Source of the DNA: Photobacterium sp. Ph5
GTDB taxonomy: Bacteria > Pseudomonadota > Gammaproteobacteria > Enterobacterales > Vibrionaceae
Length of the DNA: 64,000 bases
NCBI RefSeq assembly: GCF_022129445.1
Contig: NZ_JADQAQ010000024.1
Span: 1 to 64,000 of the forward strand
Direction: 5' to 3'
Notes under the pieces: generated by a model
Database searches by the model: none
What the model was told of the DNA's origin: nothing
What the model saw: the letters and a program-made list of their open reading frames with translations, nothing else
Made by a program: the position numbers and the translations under genes
Shown here: piece by piece, positions 191-15,107 of the stretch
Numbering within the stretch: the first letter of the stretch is position 1
Layout of the letters: each line of letters opens with the position of its first letter

Positions 191-736
191 TTACAGCGAG
201 TAAAGAATATTGGAACCGTAGGTCAAACTGGTTAATAACAGTGAATTTTTATTAATCACATCAATCCGGCGGCTTTCTTGTGCATTCATCCTGAAAATAT
301 CTTTTACAACATTGAGTTGTTGGTCATCAAAATCAACATTTGTTCCTGATGTGACGTCTTTAAATTCGGTAGGTTCAGTCAGTAAGTAGCCACCACTGAC
401 ATCCCAATGCCCTGATTCAGAAATATGAATCGTTACGGGTTTAGGTGTATTGCTGTATAGCTCTAACATCGTAATACGTGAGTATGTATGATTGGGTAAA
501 TACACCATATTACTGCTTTGTTTTACTTTACGTAGTGTGCCTAAATTATCGAGTTGTGTTGGTTCAATACGGCTAAATGTCGTACTTTGCCATTCTCGAG
601 ACATTAGCAGTTGCTCTTGCTTGTAATCAGTTGAAAAATAAACCCAACTACAAATAGTGATAGAGATAGCAAGGATCACAAAAGGCCAATACTTACGAAT
701 AATGTGAGGGAAGGTAGCCGGAGAATTTACTGACAT
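191..736 (-). CDS. toxS: ToxS, transmembrane periplasmic partner of ToxR
   Basis: This 181-residue protein has a short cytoplasmic N-terminus, one membrane helix at about residues 17-35, and a periplasmic remainder, the ToxS topology. ToxS binds the ToxR periplasmic domain in the inner membrane, protecting it from proteolysis and helping it respond to envelope signals and bile-like ligands. The ATG overlaps the last 10 bp of toxR, so the two are translationally coupled. ToxS is poorly conserved in sequence, so the call rests on topology, length and position after toxR. No terminator is visible in the 22 bp between its stop codon and the group II intron end. Confidence 0.88.
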   Translation of the reverse strand: MSVNSPATFPHIIRKYWPFVILAISITICSWVYFSTDYKQEQLLMSREWQSTTFSRIEPTQLDNLGTLRKVKQSSNMVYLPNHTYSRITMLELYSNTPKPVTIHISESGHWDVSGGYLLTEPTEFKDVTSGTNVDFDDQQLNVVKDIFRMNAQESRRIDVINKNSLLLTSLTYGSNILYSL

Positions 737-10908: not shown

Positions 10909-12123
10909 TCAGTCTTCGAGTAAACGCTGTAACAACACACCATTTAGCATTGCGCGTTTAATCATAGAAAACGCACCAATGGTTGGTTGGTTATAAAGTT
11001 CAGATGCAACAATCGGTAAATCATGATGAAACCTTGATAGTGATTGCGTTTCAATGCAGCGACGAATTGCTGGAAAGACAATGTCTTGAGCGTGTGTAAT
11101 GTTACCCGCAAGAATGATTTTTTGAGGGTTGAACAAATTAATCGTCATCGCAAGTGCTTTACCCAATTGATTTCCAACTTTTATCAATGCTTGGGTTGCT
11201 AATTCATCACCACTATTAGCCGCATCACAAATAGCAAGCATTGTTAAATCTTCAAGCTCTTGTAATGAGCTAGGATAACCTTGGTCGAGTAACTGTTGAA
11301 CATGTTTAACTATAGCGGGATCGGCTGCTACTGTTTCTAGGCAACCAAAATTACCACACTGGCATTTATCGCCTAAAGGATCGATCTGAATATGGCCGAT
11401 CTCGCCCACGTTACGGTTAAAGCCTAGGAATACTTGACCATTAACAATAATGCCAGCACCAGTGCCGTGGTGAACACTGACTAAAATTGAATCTTTACAA
11501 TCACGGCTGGCACCAAAGTAATGTTCAGCTAATGCTAAACCTCGAATATCATTACCAACAAAACAAATAACACCGAATTGTTTTTTAATAATGTCGGCTA
11601 ATGGAAAGTTATTAACATCAATATGTGGCATATATTCCACAATACCATGTTCAGGGTTCACTAAACCGGGAAGTGCAATACCAAATGCAACCAGCTCTTT
11701 CATTACATTTTGGTTATTACTGATGAAGTTTTGGATATGCTCGAGTAAGCCATCAATTAAAGCTTGTTGATCGGTATAAGAAAATGGGTGAGCAGTACCT
11801 GTGATATGGGTACCACTTAAATCATAAAGGGTTATTTCAATATAATTTCGACCAATACGTACTGCAATCGAATGAAATGCTGCTGATTCTGTTGTTAGCG
11901 ATATTGCTCGTCGTCCACCGGTTGATGCTTGTTGCGCGACTTCTTTGATTAGCCCACGCTCAAGTAGTTGGCGGGTGATTTTTGTAACACTAGCAGGTGC
12001 TAGCTGACTAACATCAGCAACCTGAATACGTGAAATAGGGCCCTGTAAGTCAATCAAGCGATAAACAGCTGCGCTATTAAGCTGTTTTACGAGATCAACA
12101 TTACCAATTTGTCCGCCTGTCAT
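10909..12123 (-). CDS. nagC: NagC, GlcNAc-6-phosphate-responsive ROK repressor
   Basis: The 404-residue protein aligns along its length with E. coli NagC (406): it starts with GQIGNVDLVKQLNSAAVYRLID, has the winged helix at about 29-60 (ISRIQVADVSQLAPASVTKI), and the ROK effector domain with EIGHIQ (His244) and the zinc-binding CQCGNFGC (Cys254, 256, 261). NagC binds palindromic operators and is released by GlcNAc-6-phosphate. In Vibrionaceae it also affects chitin-use genes. The likely targets here are the divergent nagB and nagE promoters. It lies downstream of the nagA relic in the order nagB-(nagA)-nagC, which mirrors the enterobacterial nagBAC operon. Mlc is the alternative paralogue, but the N-terminal sequence is NagC-like. 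Confidence 0.95.
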   Translation of the reverse strand: MTGGQIGNVDLVKQLNSAAVYRLIDLQGPISRIQVADVSQLAPASVTKITRQLLERGLIKEVAQQASTGGRRAISLTTESAAFHSIAVRIGRNYIEITLYDLSGTHITGTAHPFSYTDQQALIDGLLEHIQNFISNNQNVMKELVAFGIALPGLVNPEHGIVEYMPHIDVNNFPLADIIKKQFGVICFVGNDIRGLALAEHYFGASRDCKDSILVSVHHGTGAGIIVNGQVFLGFNRNVGEIGHIQIDPLGDKCQCGNFGCLETVAADPAIVKHVQQLLDQGYPSSLQELEDLTMLAICDAANSGDELATQALIKVGNQLGKALAMTINLFNPQKIILAGNITHAQDIVFPAIRRCIETQSLSRFHHDLPIVASELYNQPTIGAFSMIKRAMLNGVLLQRLLED

Positions 12124-12243
12124 AATTAGTTCTGCTCATTTTCACTGTTAATAATAACGCTTGAATACTATTGTTAATCGATAAGGTTTGTTATGACCTA
12201 TTGCTAACTTCATTCAATACGTTCCCTTGTTTCAACACTGTAT

Positions 12244-12504
12244 CTATTCATCGTTATTCGTGTTGCTTGGCTTAATATGTAGTTTTATATACATAAATGC
12301 CTTCAAGTAATATACCTGTGTGGTTGCAAAAAGAAAGTTATCGAGGTTTACGCCTGCTTGAGCTGTGGCATTGGTCACTAAAACTAAGTAGTTGCTCGTA
12401 TGGTAGCGATTGATATCGTGGCTATGGAAATTATCAGTAATTAAATAGGCAAGAGGGACAAGATGGAATGGGACATGAAGTATTGCAGTTAATTTGCTTT
12501 GCAT
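12244..12504 (-). pseudogene. nagA: Relic of nagA (GlcNAc-6-phosphate deacetylase), 86 codons
   Basis: This frame sits where nagA is expected between nagB and nagC. Its product matches an internal stretch of NagA of roughly 80 residues: LITDNFHSHDIN corresponds to the IIADGLHVDYANI region of E. coli NagA, and LVLVTNATAQAGVNLDNFLF to [20 protein letters not shown]. The motif Asp that is catalytic in NagA (Asp273 in E. coli) is Asn here. The first ~220 residues, including the metal-binding region, and the last ~70 are absent; full-length NagA is about 380 residues. The apparent ATG lacks a ribosome binding site and lies just past the nagB terminator. The alignment is from memory of the E. coli protein, but the shared motif and exact synteny are strong. 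An active product is very unlikely. Confidence 0.85.
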
Positions 12505-12510
12505 TGAAAT

Positions 12511-12536
12511 AAAAACGCCGTCAATAATGACGGCGT
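12511..12536 (-). terminator. Terminator of nagB
   Basis: A perfect 9-bp stem ACGCCGTCA/TGACGGCGT with an ATAA-type loop is followed on the minus strand by TTTTTATTT. It stands between nagB and the nagA relic, so read-through into the relic and nagC should be low. Confidence 0.9.
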
Positions 12537-12559
12537 AATATTACCACTTTAATGCGCGA

Positions 12560-13360
12560 TTAAAGGTGATTGATGTTCTCAGCTTCTAGCTCTTGGAAGT
12601 ACTTAACTGTCTTCACTTTAAGCTCTTGCGTTGCTGGCTCATCACAAACAATCATTGATTTAGGATGTAGCTGAAGTGCAGATACCGTCCATAGGTGATT
12701 CACACTGCCTTCAACAGCGGCTTGTAGCGCCTGTGCTTTGTTGTGGCCAGTGATCAGGATCATTACTTCTTCAGAATCAAGTAGTGTACCAACACCGATA
12801 GTTAGCGAGTACTTAGGTACTTGATTGATATCGCCATCGAAGAAACGAGAGTTAGCAATACGCGTTTCGTGCGTTAGTGTTTTGATACGCGTACGAGAAG
12901 CAAGAGATGATGCTGGCTCGTTAAATGCAATGTGACCATCGTTGCCTACGCCACCCATGAACAGGTTGATTTTACCGTAAGATTTGATCTTATCTTCGTA
13001 ACGCTGACATTCTGCTGCGTGATCTTCTGCATTGCCGTCAAGAAGGTTGATGTTGTCTTCTTGAATGTCAACGTGGTTAAAGAAGTTGTTGTACATGAAG
13101 TTACGGTATGATTCTGGGTGATCAGAAGCCATGCCTACGTACTCATCCATGTTGAAAGTAACAACATGCTTAAAGCTTACTTCGCCAGCTTGGTATAGCT
13201 CGATAAGACGTTTGTAAGTTGCAAGTGGTGTACCACCTGTTGGTAGACCCAATACAAATGGACGCTCAGCTGATGGTTCGAATTTATTGATACGATCTGC
13301 GATGTAGCGAGCTGACCATAAACCAACATCTTTAGCGTTATTAAGCGGGATTAGTCTCAC
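12560..13360 (-). CDS. nagB: Glucosamine-6-phosphate deaminase
   Basis: Converts glucosamine-6-phosphate to fructose-6-phosphate and ammonia, the entry of amino sugars into glycolysis. The 266 residues equal the E. coli enzyme in length, and the catalytic set is in register: Asp72 (NMDEYVG), Asp141, His143 and Glu148 ([14 protein letters not shown]). Residues of the allosteric GlcNAc-6-phosphate site, such as the segment after SRTRIKTL, also look kept. It is transcribed divergently from nagE across a 256-bp control region, as in E. coli. Its usual downstream partner nagA is reduced to a relic. Confidence 0.98.
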
Positions 13361-13482
13361 GTTGATACCTCGTTGAAGAAAGTTAAAACAGGAAAAATCT
13401 TAGCGACATAGCGCCTTTGTTTCGAATGATAAAATAAGTTTTATGATCGAGCTAGCAAAATCACTCACTTCTAACCTCCGTC

Positions 13483-13498
13483 GGTGATTGAGATCACA
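13483..13498. promoter_or_regulatory. CRP-cAMP binding site, nagB/nagE control region
   Basis: GGTGATTGAGATCACA fits the CRP consensus TGTGA-N6-TCACA, with one half perfect and one mismatch in the other. It lies between the divergent nagB and nagE, where E. coli also has a CRP site. Confidence 0.75.
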
Positions 13499-13510
13499 AA
13501 TGGTGAGCTT

Positions 13511-13532
13511 TTAATTTGCGGGGCGAAATTAA
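13511..13532. promoter_or_regulatory. Candidate NagC operator upstream of nagE
   Basis: TTAATTT at 13511-13517 and AAATTAA at 13526-13532 are inverted repeats around a GC-rich centre (GCGGGGCG). This resembles NagC operators, AT-rich arms about a C/G-flanked centre. A weaker AT-rich site near 13417-13437 could be a partner for looping, as in the E. coli nagB/nagE region. Confidence 0.55.
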
Positions 13533-13616
13533 TTTCTTAAACTGCGGATAACTAAATACGGATAGCTTAAATCAGCTATTCAATCGCATCTAAGAAAACC
13601 ATAGGGGGAACTAAGG

Positions 13617-15107
13617 GTGAATATTCTTGGATATTTTCAAAAAGTAGGTAAGGCATTAATGGTGCCAGTTGCAGTACTTCCTGCAGCGGCAATCTTAATG
13701 GGTATCGGTTACTGGATTGATCCGAACGGCTGGGGTGCAAACTCTGCATTAGCTGCTTTCTTGATCAAGGCAGGCGCTGCAATTATTGATAACATGTCTG
13801 TACTGTTTGCTGTTGGTGTTGCATACGGTATGTCTAAAGATAAAGATGGTGCAGCAGCACTATCCGGTTTTGTTGGTTTCCTTGTGGTAACAACGCTTCT
13901 TGCACCGGGTGCAGTAGCGCAAATTCAAGGTATTGACCCAAGCGCAGTTCCAGCTGCATTTGGTAAAATCAATAACCAATTCGTAGGTATCCTAGTAGGT
14001 ATCGTGTCAGCTGAGTTGTACAACCGTTTCTCAAGCGTAGAACTACATAAAGCACTAGCGTTCTTTAGTGGTAAGCGTTTAGTACCAATTCTAACATCTG
14101 TTGCTGGTATCGTTATTGCTGGTATCTTGATGTTTGTTTGGCCATCAATTTACGGCGGTCTTGTACACTTTGGTGAAAGCATCCAAGGTATGGGTTCTGT
14201 AGGTGCGGGTATCTACGCATTCTTCAACCGTCTATTAATTCCTGTGGGTCTACACCACGCACTAAACTCAGTATTCTGGTTTGATGTTGCAGGTATTAAC
14301 GATATTCCTAACTTCTTAGGTGGTGCGAAATCTATCGCTGAAGGTACAGCAACTCCAGGTATCACTGGTATGTACCAAGCTGGTTTCTTCCCAATTATGA
14401 TGTTTGGTCTACCAGGTGCAGCACTTGCGATGTACCACACTGCGAAAGCGAAGAACAAAGAGCGTGTAGCATCACTACTTATCGCTGCTGGTTTTGCATC
14501 ATTCTTCACAGGTGTTACTGAGCCGCTAGAATTTGCATTCATGTTCCTTGCACCAGTACTGTACGTAATTCACGCAGCACTAGCGGGTCTATCTGTATAC
14601 ATCGCAGCATCAATGCAGTGGATTGCAGGCTTTGGTTTCTCTGCAGGTCTAGTTGATATGTTCTTGTCATCACGCAACCCACTAGCTGTTCAGTGGTACA
14701 TGCTGATTGTTCAAGGTATTGCATTCTTCTTCATCTACTACTTCATCTTCCGTTTCGCGATTGTTAAGTTCAATCTTAAAACGCCAGGCCGTGAAGATGA
14801 CGACGAAGAGACTTCATCAGTTGCAGGTTCTGCAGAAACTGGCGAACTAGCTAAGCAGTACTTAAAAGCACTGGGTGGTCACGGTAACCTAGAGAACATC
14901 GATGCTTGTATTACACGTCTACGTCTAACGTTAAAAGACAGCAGTCTTGCTAACGAGAAAACGTTGAAAGCACTAGGTGCAATGGGTGTAGTTAAGCTAG
15001 GTTCAAATAACCTTCAGGTTATCCTTGGCCCTCTAGCTGAAATCGTTGCTGGCGAAATGAAGAAAATCCCAGCGTCAGAAGATCTATCTTCTGTAAAACT
15101 TCCATAA
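13617..15107 (+). CDS. nagE: N-acetylglucosamine-specific PTS enzyme IICB
   Basis: Imports and phosphorylates GlcNAc to GlcNAc-6-phosphate at the inner membrane. The start is GTG at 13617, preceded by AGGGGGAA. The 496-residue protein has the EIIC transporter domain at about 1-385 (VGKALMVPVAVLPAAAILMG, many helices, and VTEPLEFAFMFLAP) and the EIIB domain at about 405-496 with the phosphorylated Cys431 in NIDACITRLRLTL. The EIIA domain fused at the C-terminus of E. coli NagE (648 residues) is absent, so phosphate must come from a separate EIIA such as EIIA-Glc (Crr). It is divergent from nagB and followed by the chitobiase gene. Confidence 0.95.
   Translation: MNILGYFQKVGKALMVPVAVLPAAAILMGIGYWIDPNGWGANSALAAFLIKAGAAIIDNMSVLFAVGVAYGMSKDKDGAAALSGFVGFLVVTTLLAPGAVAQIQGIDPSAVPAAFGKINNQFVGILVGIVSAELYNRFSSVELHKALAFFSGKRLVPILTSVAGIVIAGILMFVWPSIYGGLVHFGESIQGMGSVGAGIYAFFNRLLIPVGLHHALNSVFWFDVAGINDIPNFLGGAKSIAEGTATPGITGMYQAGFFPIMMFGLPGAALAMYHTAKAKNKERVASLLIAAGFASFFTGVTEPLEFAFMFLAPVLYVIHAALAGLSVYIAASMQWIAGFGFSAGLVDMFLSSRNPLAVQWYMLIVQGIAFFFIYYFIFRFAIVKFNLKTPGREDDDEETSSVAGSAETGELAKQYLKALGGHGNLENIDACITRLRLTLKDSSLANEKTLKALGAMGVVKLGSNNLQVILGPLAEIVAGEMKKIPASEDLSSVKLP

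Follow-up and report, generated by a model that had tools for sequence, protein, structure and literature searches.

In Photobacterium sp. Ph5, the operon copy of nagA, the GlcNAc-6-P deacetylase gene, survives between nagB and nagC as a relic whose sequence is best explained as a pair of regulatory elements kept after the gene itself died. We examined the relic in a 64,000-nucleotide window of this genome (G000) and in homologous loci. The explanation we favour, with a probability of about 0.65, is that operon nagA held a hairpin used by nagB together with a promoter-like block and leader used by nagC, and that deletion removed the enzyme and spared both elements. In Photobacterium, a hairpin at nagA codons ~16-31 would serve upstream nagB as an mRNA 3' end or partial terminator. 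The block (codons 266-291) and a folded leader (to codon ~350) would serve downstream nagC, and this 3' element would do so in certain related genera as well. A second deacetylase, NagA2, would have made the operon enzyme dispensable, so that the middle of the gene (~codons 27-240) could be deleted, an event that probably took place in two or more lineages. Selection would then have preserved both elements, turning the hairpin, once it gained a T tail, into the nagB terminator, and the block with its leader into the promoter and 5' UTR of nagC. Both ends of nagA would thus have carried an element that survived while the middle went.

The relic lies on the minus strand between nagB (12560..13360, minus; glucosamine-6-phosphate deaminase, 266 aa, GTG start; TIGR00502 E=8e-135) and nagC (10909..12123, minus; a ROK-family repressor of 404 aa; NF047937 E=1.3e-210). 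Divergent from nagB is an ORF (13617..15107, plus) that we take to be the GlcNAc PTS transporter gene nagE, a name carried over from the sequence-only reading, position and recall; it shows 86-99% identity to its counterparts in 20 further nag loci. The sequence-only reading had described an 86-codon NagA remnant (12244..12504, minus; 86 aa) in which the motif VTDATAPAG reads VTNATAQAG, and profile and PDB sequence matches bear this out. Aligning the frame to NagA profiles, as had been proposed, did find similarity: PRK11170 matched at E=8.1e-6 (residues 33-67 to profile positions 261-295), far under its curated cut-off, and TIGR00221 at E=0.0056 (residues 21-70 to 247-301 of 380), with 15.7 bits against a curated cut-off of 225.65 that requires a full-length score. 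Five PDB NagA sequences also matched (E 5e-4 to 0.086); the best, 2p53, itself reads VTNATAPAG and is presumably the D273N mutant of NagA. A Pfam search of the frame gave no match at E<=10. The ends missing from the frame had been put at about 220 N-terminal and 70 C-terminal residues; truncation at both ends holds, with figures nearer ~240 and ~80, and alignments inspected by eye show nagA 3' sequence running on, no longer in frame, from the relic as far as nagC. The relic thus shares with NagA its descent, its position between nagB and nagC and a VT(D/N)ATA motif, but it has only ~50 recognisable in-frame residues and Asn for the catalytic Asp, and no enzyme is possible. That codon is AAT or AAC (Asn) in all 11 relics described below.

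We do not judge the frame to be a functional protein. In each of the homologous relics of G016 and G033, the matching frame is interrupted by two TAA codons and a frameshift, on which grounds a protein-coding relic was rejected. That the frame encodes a functional small protein, as its openness in G000 would allow, is therefore extremely improbable; the broken sister frames refute a conserved protein, leave a species-specific one at most and give no support to a conserved small-protein family. For the same reason, the original interpretation of the open frame as a sign of recent decay or retained protein use finds no support.

Loss of operon nagA recurs within the genus. Among 52 Photobacterium genomes searched, 51 have a nagC locus (the remaining one, 85% complete, has only a weaker NagC relative), and 40 of these 51 loci carry a nearly full-length nagA in the place where it had been expected. 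The other 11 have lost it, and the view that the operon shed nagA while nagB, nagE and nagC stayed holds. Losers include P. lucens, P. phosphoreum, P. iliopiscarium, P. aquimaris, P. carnosum and P. piscicola; close relatives with intact nagA include P. angustum, P. kishitanii and P. malacitanum. The nagB-nagC interval spans 435-481 nt in the 11 losers versus 1156-1162 nt in the 10 keepers compared. We divide the relics into clade A (G000, G016 and G033; n=3) and clade B (the other eight).

What the losers retained is the same in every case. A 78-nt block (12307..12384, minus), corresponding to nagA codons 266-291, is kept in 11/11 together with the DNA from the block to nagC. The segment runs from TTTTAGTGACC (in three, TTTTACGTGACC) to GTATATTA, then through degenerate nagA 3' sequence to nagC. 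Measured in 20-nt windows with gaps counted as differences, the block is conserved above neutral expectation. Its windows differ by 0-7% among clade A relics versus 31% at four-fold sites, and by 7-15% among clade B relics versus 36%, with clade B flanks mostly at 20-52%. Other conserved parts of the relic intervals are the terminator and the last ~30 nt before nagC. An ordinary decaying pseudogene, an unselected leftover whose survival in several species reflects chance or recent loss, would account for the frame broken in sister relics, the missing catalytic Asp, the deletion of most of nagA and the presence of a full-length paralog. We consider it improbable, since G000 and G033 differ at 2/78 block sites while clade A DNA between terminator and block differs by 23-52% on average, the same segment is kept in 11/11 losers, and the same codons of intact genes show a synonymous dip. 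The comparison with sister species, which had been suggested as a way to date the deletion, did reveal nagA loss in others, but a block retained in all 11 losers is not plain decay.

The synonymous dip indicates that the block element pre-dates nagA loss. Across the 40 intact Photobacterium nagA genes, the observed/expected ratio of synonymous change is 0.72 overall and falls to 0.28 at codons 282-290 and 275-283; GAT280, GTA289 and TAT290 are invariant in 40/40. The 15-codon window 275-289 (0.33) was matched in 2/5000 codon-order permutations of the same 40 genes, and constraint continues downstream of the block to about codon 330. The lowest window of all is codons 13-27 (0.21), at the hairpin, and further low windows lie at 315-329, 355-371 and 290-304 (0.43, 0.46 and 0.53). 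In a 20-genome set common to the four genes, the nagA dips are 0.27 (codons 12-26) and 0.40 (277-291), and the lowest windows of nagB, nagC and nagE are 0.59, 0.52 and 0.31, the last at the start of nagE. Outside the genus, the dip in 10 Aliivibrio genes stretches from codon 259 to about 320 (0.00-0.16, against 0.52 overall), and 13 genes of the Enterovibrio/Grimontia group show one of 0.30 at 275-284 (0.78 overall). Thirteen Vibrio genes show no clear dip at the block codons (0.72-0.84, overall 0.86), their lowest window being 0.61 at codons 296-306.

Local synonymous drops also occur at nagC codons 3-17 and 50-64 and at nagE codons 1-16 in the Photobacterium alignments; they are possibly other embedded signals or gene-start effects.

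At the opposite end of the gene, the second element is an intrinsic terminator after nagB (12511..12536, minus; stem 12536-12515, then a T-rich tail). In G000 it has a 9-bp, GC-rich stem with 6 GC pairs and a T run (TTTTATTT); the hairpin itself is ACGCCGTCATTATTGACGGCGT, followed by the T-rich tail, and a scan found this one terminator against a shuffled mean of 0.3 (sd 0.8). A terminator before the relic had been noted correctly, but not its origin: rather than being newly placed, it is a remodelled nagA hairpin, which matches codons 19-26 of the four intact clade A genes, its closest intact relatives, at 22/22 positions. The hairpins of G016 and G033 differ from that of G000 by one loop base, and those of clade B by more. 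A strict script recovered the terminator in 5/11 relics, and by eye all 11 have a hairpin of the form [AG]CGCCG...GGCGTTT.

The hairpin belongs to intact genes as well. Codons 12-34 of intact Photobacterium nagA fold strongly (median -30 kcal/mol, n=40). Scored by mononucleotide shuffles, and bearing in mind that loci of one genus are not independent, z<=-2 was reached in 33/40 Photobacterium loci, in 13/17 other loci with nagB directly upstream and in 1/19 loci without nagB upstream. This pattern, common with nagB upstream and nearly always absent without it, ties the hairpin to nagB. Against codon-shuffled controls, codons 1-50 and 17-66 of 25 of the 40 intact genes gave z of -5.8 and -7.4. 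Within Vibrio, too, the hairpin tracks the presence of nagB upstream (examples in Vibrionaceae: L181, L183 and L192).

Since nagB is followed by a terminator, transcription of nagC presumably depends on a separate promoter. The block is promoter-sized, ends in TATATT and is followed by faster-changing folded sequence, so we read it as a candidate nagC promoter region, with transcription perhaps starting near 12302, and the rest as leader. TATATT (12309..12314, minus) is a -10-like hexamer within GTATATTA, present in 11/11 relics. Among intact genes, GTATATTA[CT] occurs in 70/76, which are all those that encode Val-Tyr-Tyr at codons 289-291, and all 70 use GTA-TAT-TA[CT] there; the other six are Vibrio. 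The CRP consensus is TGTGA-N6-TCACA, and AGTGACCAATGCCACA (12364..12379, minus), which includes the Asp-to-Asn base, has two mismatches to it and may confer CRP control. Its core, GTGA-N6-CCACA, is found in 11/11 relics and, among intact nagA genes, in 7/40 Photobacterium, 10/10 Aliivibrio, 7/13 Vibrio and 1/13 of the Enterovibrio/Grimontia group. A sigma-70 consensus scan of 12080-12620 gave no site at the block and one elsewhere, versus 2.0 expected; the -35 position of the block, at 16-18 nt, bears no resemblance to TTGACA and matches poorly. These results, the scarcity of the CRP-like core in intact Photobacterium genes and the missing dip in Vibrio weigh against the favoured explanation. 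A pattern scan for a NagC operator in the block, covering 8 of the 11 relics, returned only scattered matches with 1-2 mismatches. Antisense promoter and sigma-54 motifs were examined by eye and dropped.

A stretch ~95 nt upstream of the block in clade B matches it in conservation (windows 8-14% different) and carries TTGACA in 7 of the 8 intervals (L106 and L108-L114); it may be a second nagC promoter or the true one, in which case transcription would run through the block as part of a folded 5' UTR. The folding of the leader would suit such an arrangement; we nevertheless regard it as doubtful, because clade A has diverged more in the DNA preceding the block (23-52%), by eye there is no clear -10 at 16-18 nt, and intact genes give no sign of folding at the block (codons 267-316, z +0.9 in 25 of the 40).

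We also searched for the block elsewhere in 7 genomes; beyond the nag locus, a single match reached E<0.01, a 38-nt piece inside purH of G030 (90% identity; L226 1500-1540), which we took as chance. A 14-base piece (query 45-58) has some thirty matches in contigs C1 and C3 of G016 and few in the other six genomes; it is probably part of an unrelated repeat.

The reading of the block as promoter region leaves the DNA from GTATATTA to nagC as a proposed folded leader (12124..12306, minus), ending in the retained nagA 3' end, with hairpins at about 12301-12269 and 12265-12233 (minus). Its consensus fold is conserved, with z of -4.8 in clade A, -6.3 in clade B and -5.3 in both together (301/332 cells paired) and 0/100 column shuffles as stable in any of the three sets, figures that come from few relic sequences, from a fold picked on the same alignment and from shuffles that do not keep dinucleotides. 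Both bases of a pair have changed in 3/56 pairs in A, 3/42 in B and 12/31 in A+B. One stem, for example, reads CAACAC/GTGTTG in A and CGACAC/GTGTCG or CGGCAC/GTGCCG in most of B, and is partly broken in G066 and G005; the A and B folds differ in detail. In the same 25 of 40 intact genes, codons 284-333 and 301-350 gave z of -3.1 and -5.1 against codon-shuffled controls, and windows between the two gene ends reached -3.2 at most (84-133).

A folded, conserved RNA between terminator and nagC might instead be a stand-alone small RNA gene that lay in the last third of nagA, outlived it and acts in trans. This seems unlikely, as G000 has no intrinsic terminator between block and nagC, the downstream part changes faster than the block, and an Rfam search found no family at gathering score (five sub-threshold matches, E 0.75-3.4, four of them overlapping the terminator). 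Alternatively, the block could act on a long nagBAC transcript as an RNA processing or stability site, such as one for RNase E, and not as a promoter. RNase E recognises an AU-rich motif, and the block's AU-rich GUAUAUUA is followed by hairpins, with synonymous constraint running downstream to about codon 330. Since the terminator precedes the block in relic loci, little nagB transcript should arrive there, read-through aside, and we hold a processing site to be quite improbable. More speculatively, the ~180-nt leader could be a cis-acting regulatory RNA, born inside nagA and freed by deletion, that controls nagC by amino-sugar state. We would not bet on this, but if true, gene death turned nagA codons into a pure regulatory module common to two neighbours.

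Loss of the operon enzyme need not have broken the GlcNAc pathway, because a full-length NagA paralog, NagA2, lies elsewhere (G000:C20:4240-5373, found by profile search) with a NagC-like palindrome upstream. A second nagA had been called for if the strain grows on GlcNAc, and the genome search supplied it; the possibility that none existed was rejected. NagA2 scores 358-359 bits against TIGR00221, above the cut-off of 225.65, and 427 bits against PRK11170, under the cut-off of 483. It is 41% identical to operon NagA and keeps the aligned motifs LEGP, GHTNAT, THLYNAM, DGIH and VTDAVAPAG, to which we ascribe presumed catalytic roles. It is probably an active deacetylase able to replace operon NagA. 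A homolog of at least 61% identity occurs in 49/52 genus genomes, and the three without are 74-85% complete. In G000, nagA2 has no close co-directional neighbour. The palindrome, of the type ATCTTATTTTTCATAGTGAAATAAGAT in clade B and looser in clade A, resembles the boxes between nagE and nagB and is a putative NagC site. The predicted accumulation of GlcNAc-6-P is therefore unsupported: NagA2 is full length, its motifs are kept and it has this palindrome upstream. Operon nagA loss need not block GlcNAc use in G000; whether the same holds for G016 is uncertain.

G016 is likewise without operon nagA, and its nagA2 matches fall in two overlapping frames (L125, G016:C1:761638-762769), a frameshift or an assembly error. 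A third NagA-like gene, ~30% identical, occurs in G016 and G033.

A single origin of all relics was first suggested by the shared Asp-to-Asn base, the sole state that every one of the 11 relics has and none of the 16 intact genes examined does, and by the shared terminator. The tree of the 78-nt block speaks against it: clade A relics group with intact clade A genes (support 96), and clade B relics, themselves one group (98), fall outside intact A+B (96). This placement favours at least two losses. Relic A and relic B blocks differ at 22.4/78 sites on average, which counts against the favoured explanation. Probably, as far as so few as 78 sites allow, nagA was lost at least twice, sparing the same element and changing the same base. 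Two clade B species with intact nagA are placed with or among losers; P. malacitanum is sister to P. aquimaris, a loser, and nested among losers, so the intact nagA of P. malacitanum and P. kishitanii calls for a further step, either re-gain by recombination or additional losses. The nagE and nagB divergences are unequal in this region, as recombination would produce.

Embedded regulatory elements in coding sequences are known, as internal operon promoters and as RNAs derived from coding sequence. The relic shares with that class a regulatory signal that overlaps codons and suppresses synonymous change; it differs in that two elements at opposite gene ends both outlive the gene, apparently in parallel lineages. 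The comparative data suggest that regulatory elements embedded in codons can determine what remains of a gene after its death, and they lead to a general prediction: pseudogene fragments that persist should overlap the synonymous dips of their intact orthologs. The repressor gene of GlcNAc use, nagC, may be expressed from a separate promoter and leader within nagA in Photobacterium and some relatives, in which case laboratory nagA deletions could also disturb nagC. The titles and abstract openings that we covered describe no nagC promoter inside Vibrionaceae nagA. In Yersinia pseudotuberculosis, a 508-bp region upstream of nagC drives an autoregulated, NagC-repressed lux fusion, and a -10, a -35 and a putative NagC site are reported in the nagC promoter region (PMC10634360); the passages on the 508-bp region do not state whether it lies inside nagA. 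The likeness that we propose to this P_nagC::lux fusion, as those passages describe it, is expression of nagC from the region directly upstream; at the relic locus, by contrast, there is no clear NagC operator or -35, and the surrounding enzyme gene is gone (PMC10634360).

Between G000 and G009, across window positions 12560-15107, four-fold divergence is 0.09 in nagE and 0.32 in adjacent nagB, a disparity that suggests recombination between the two genes.
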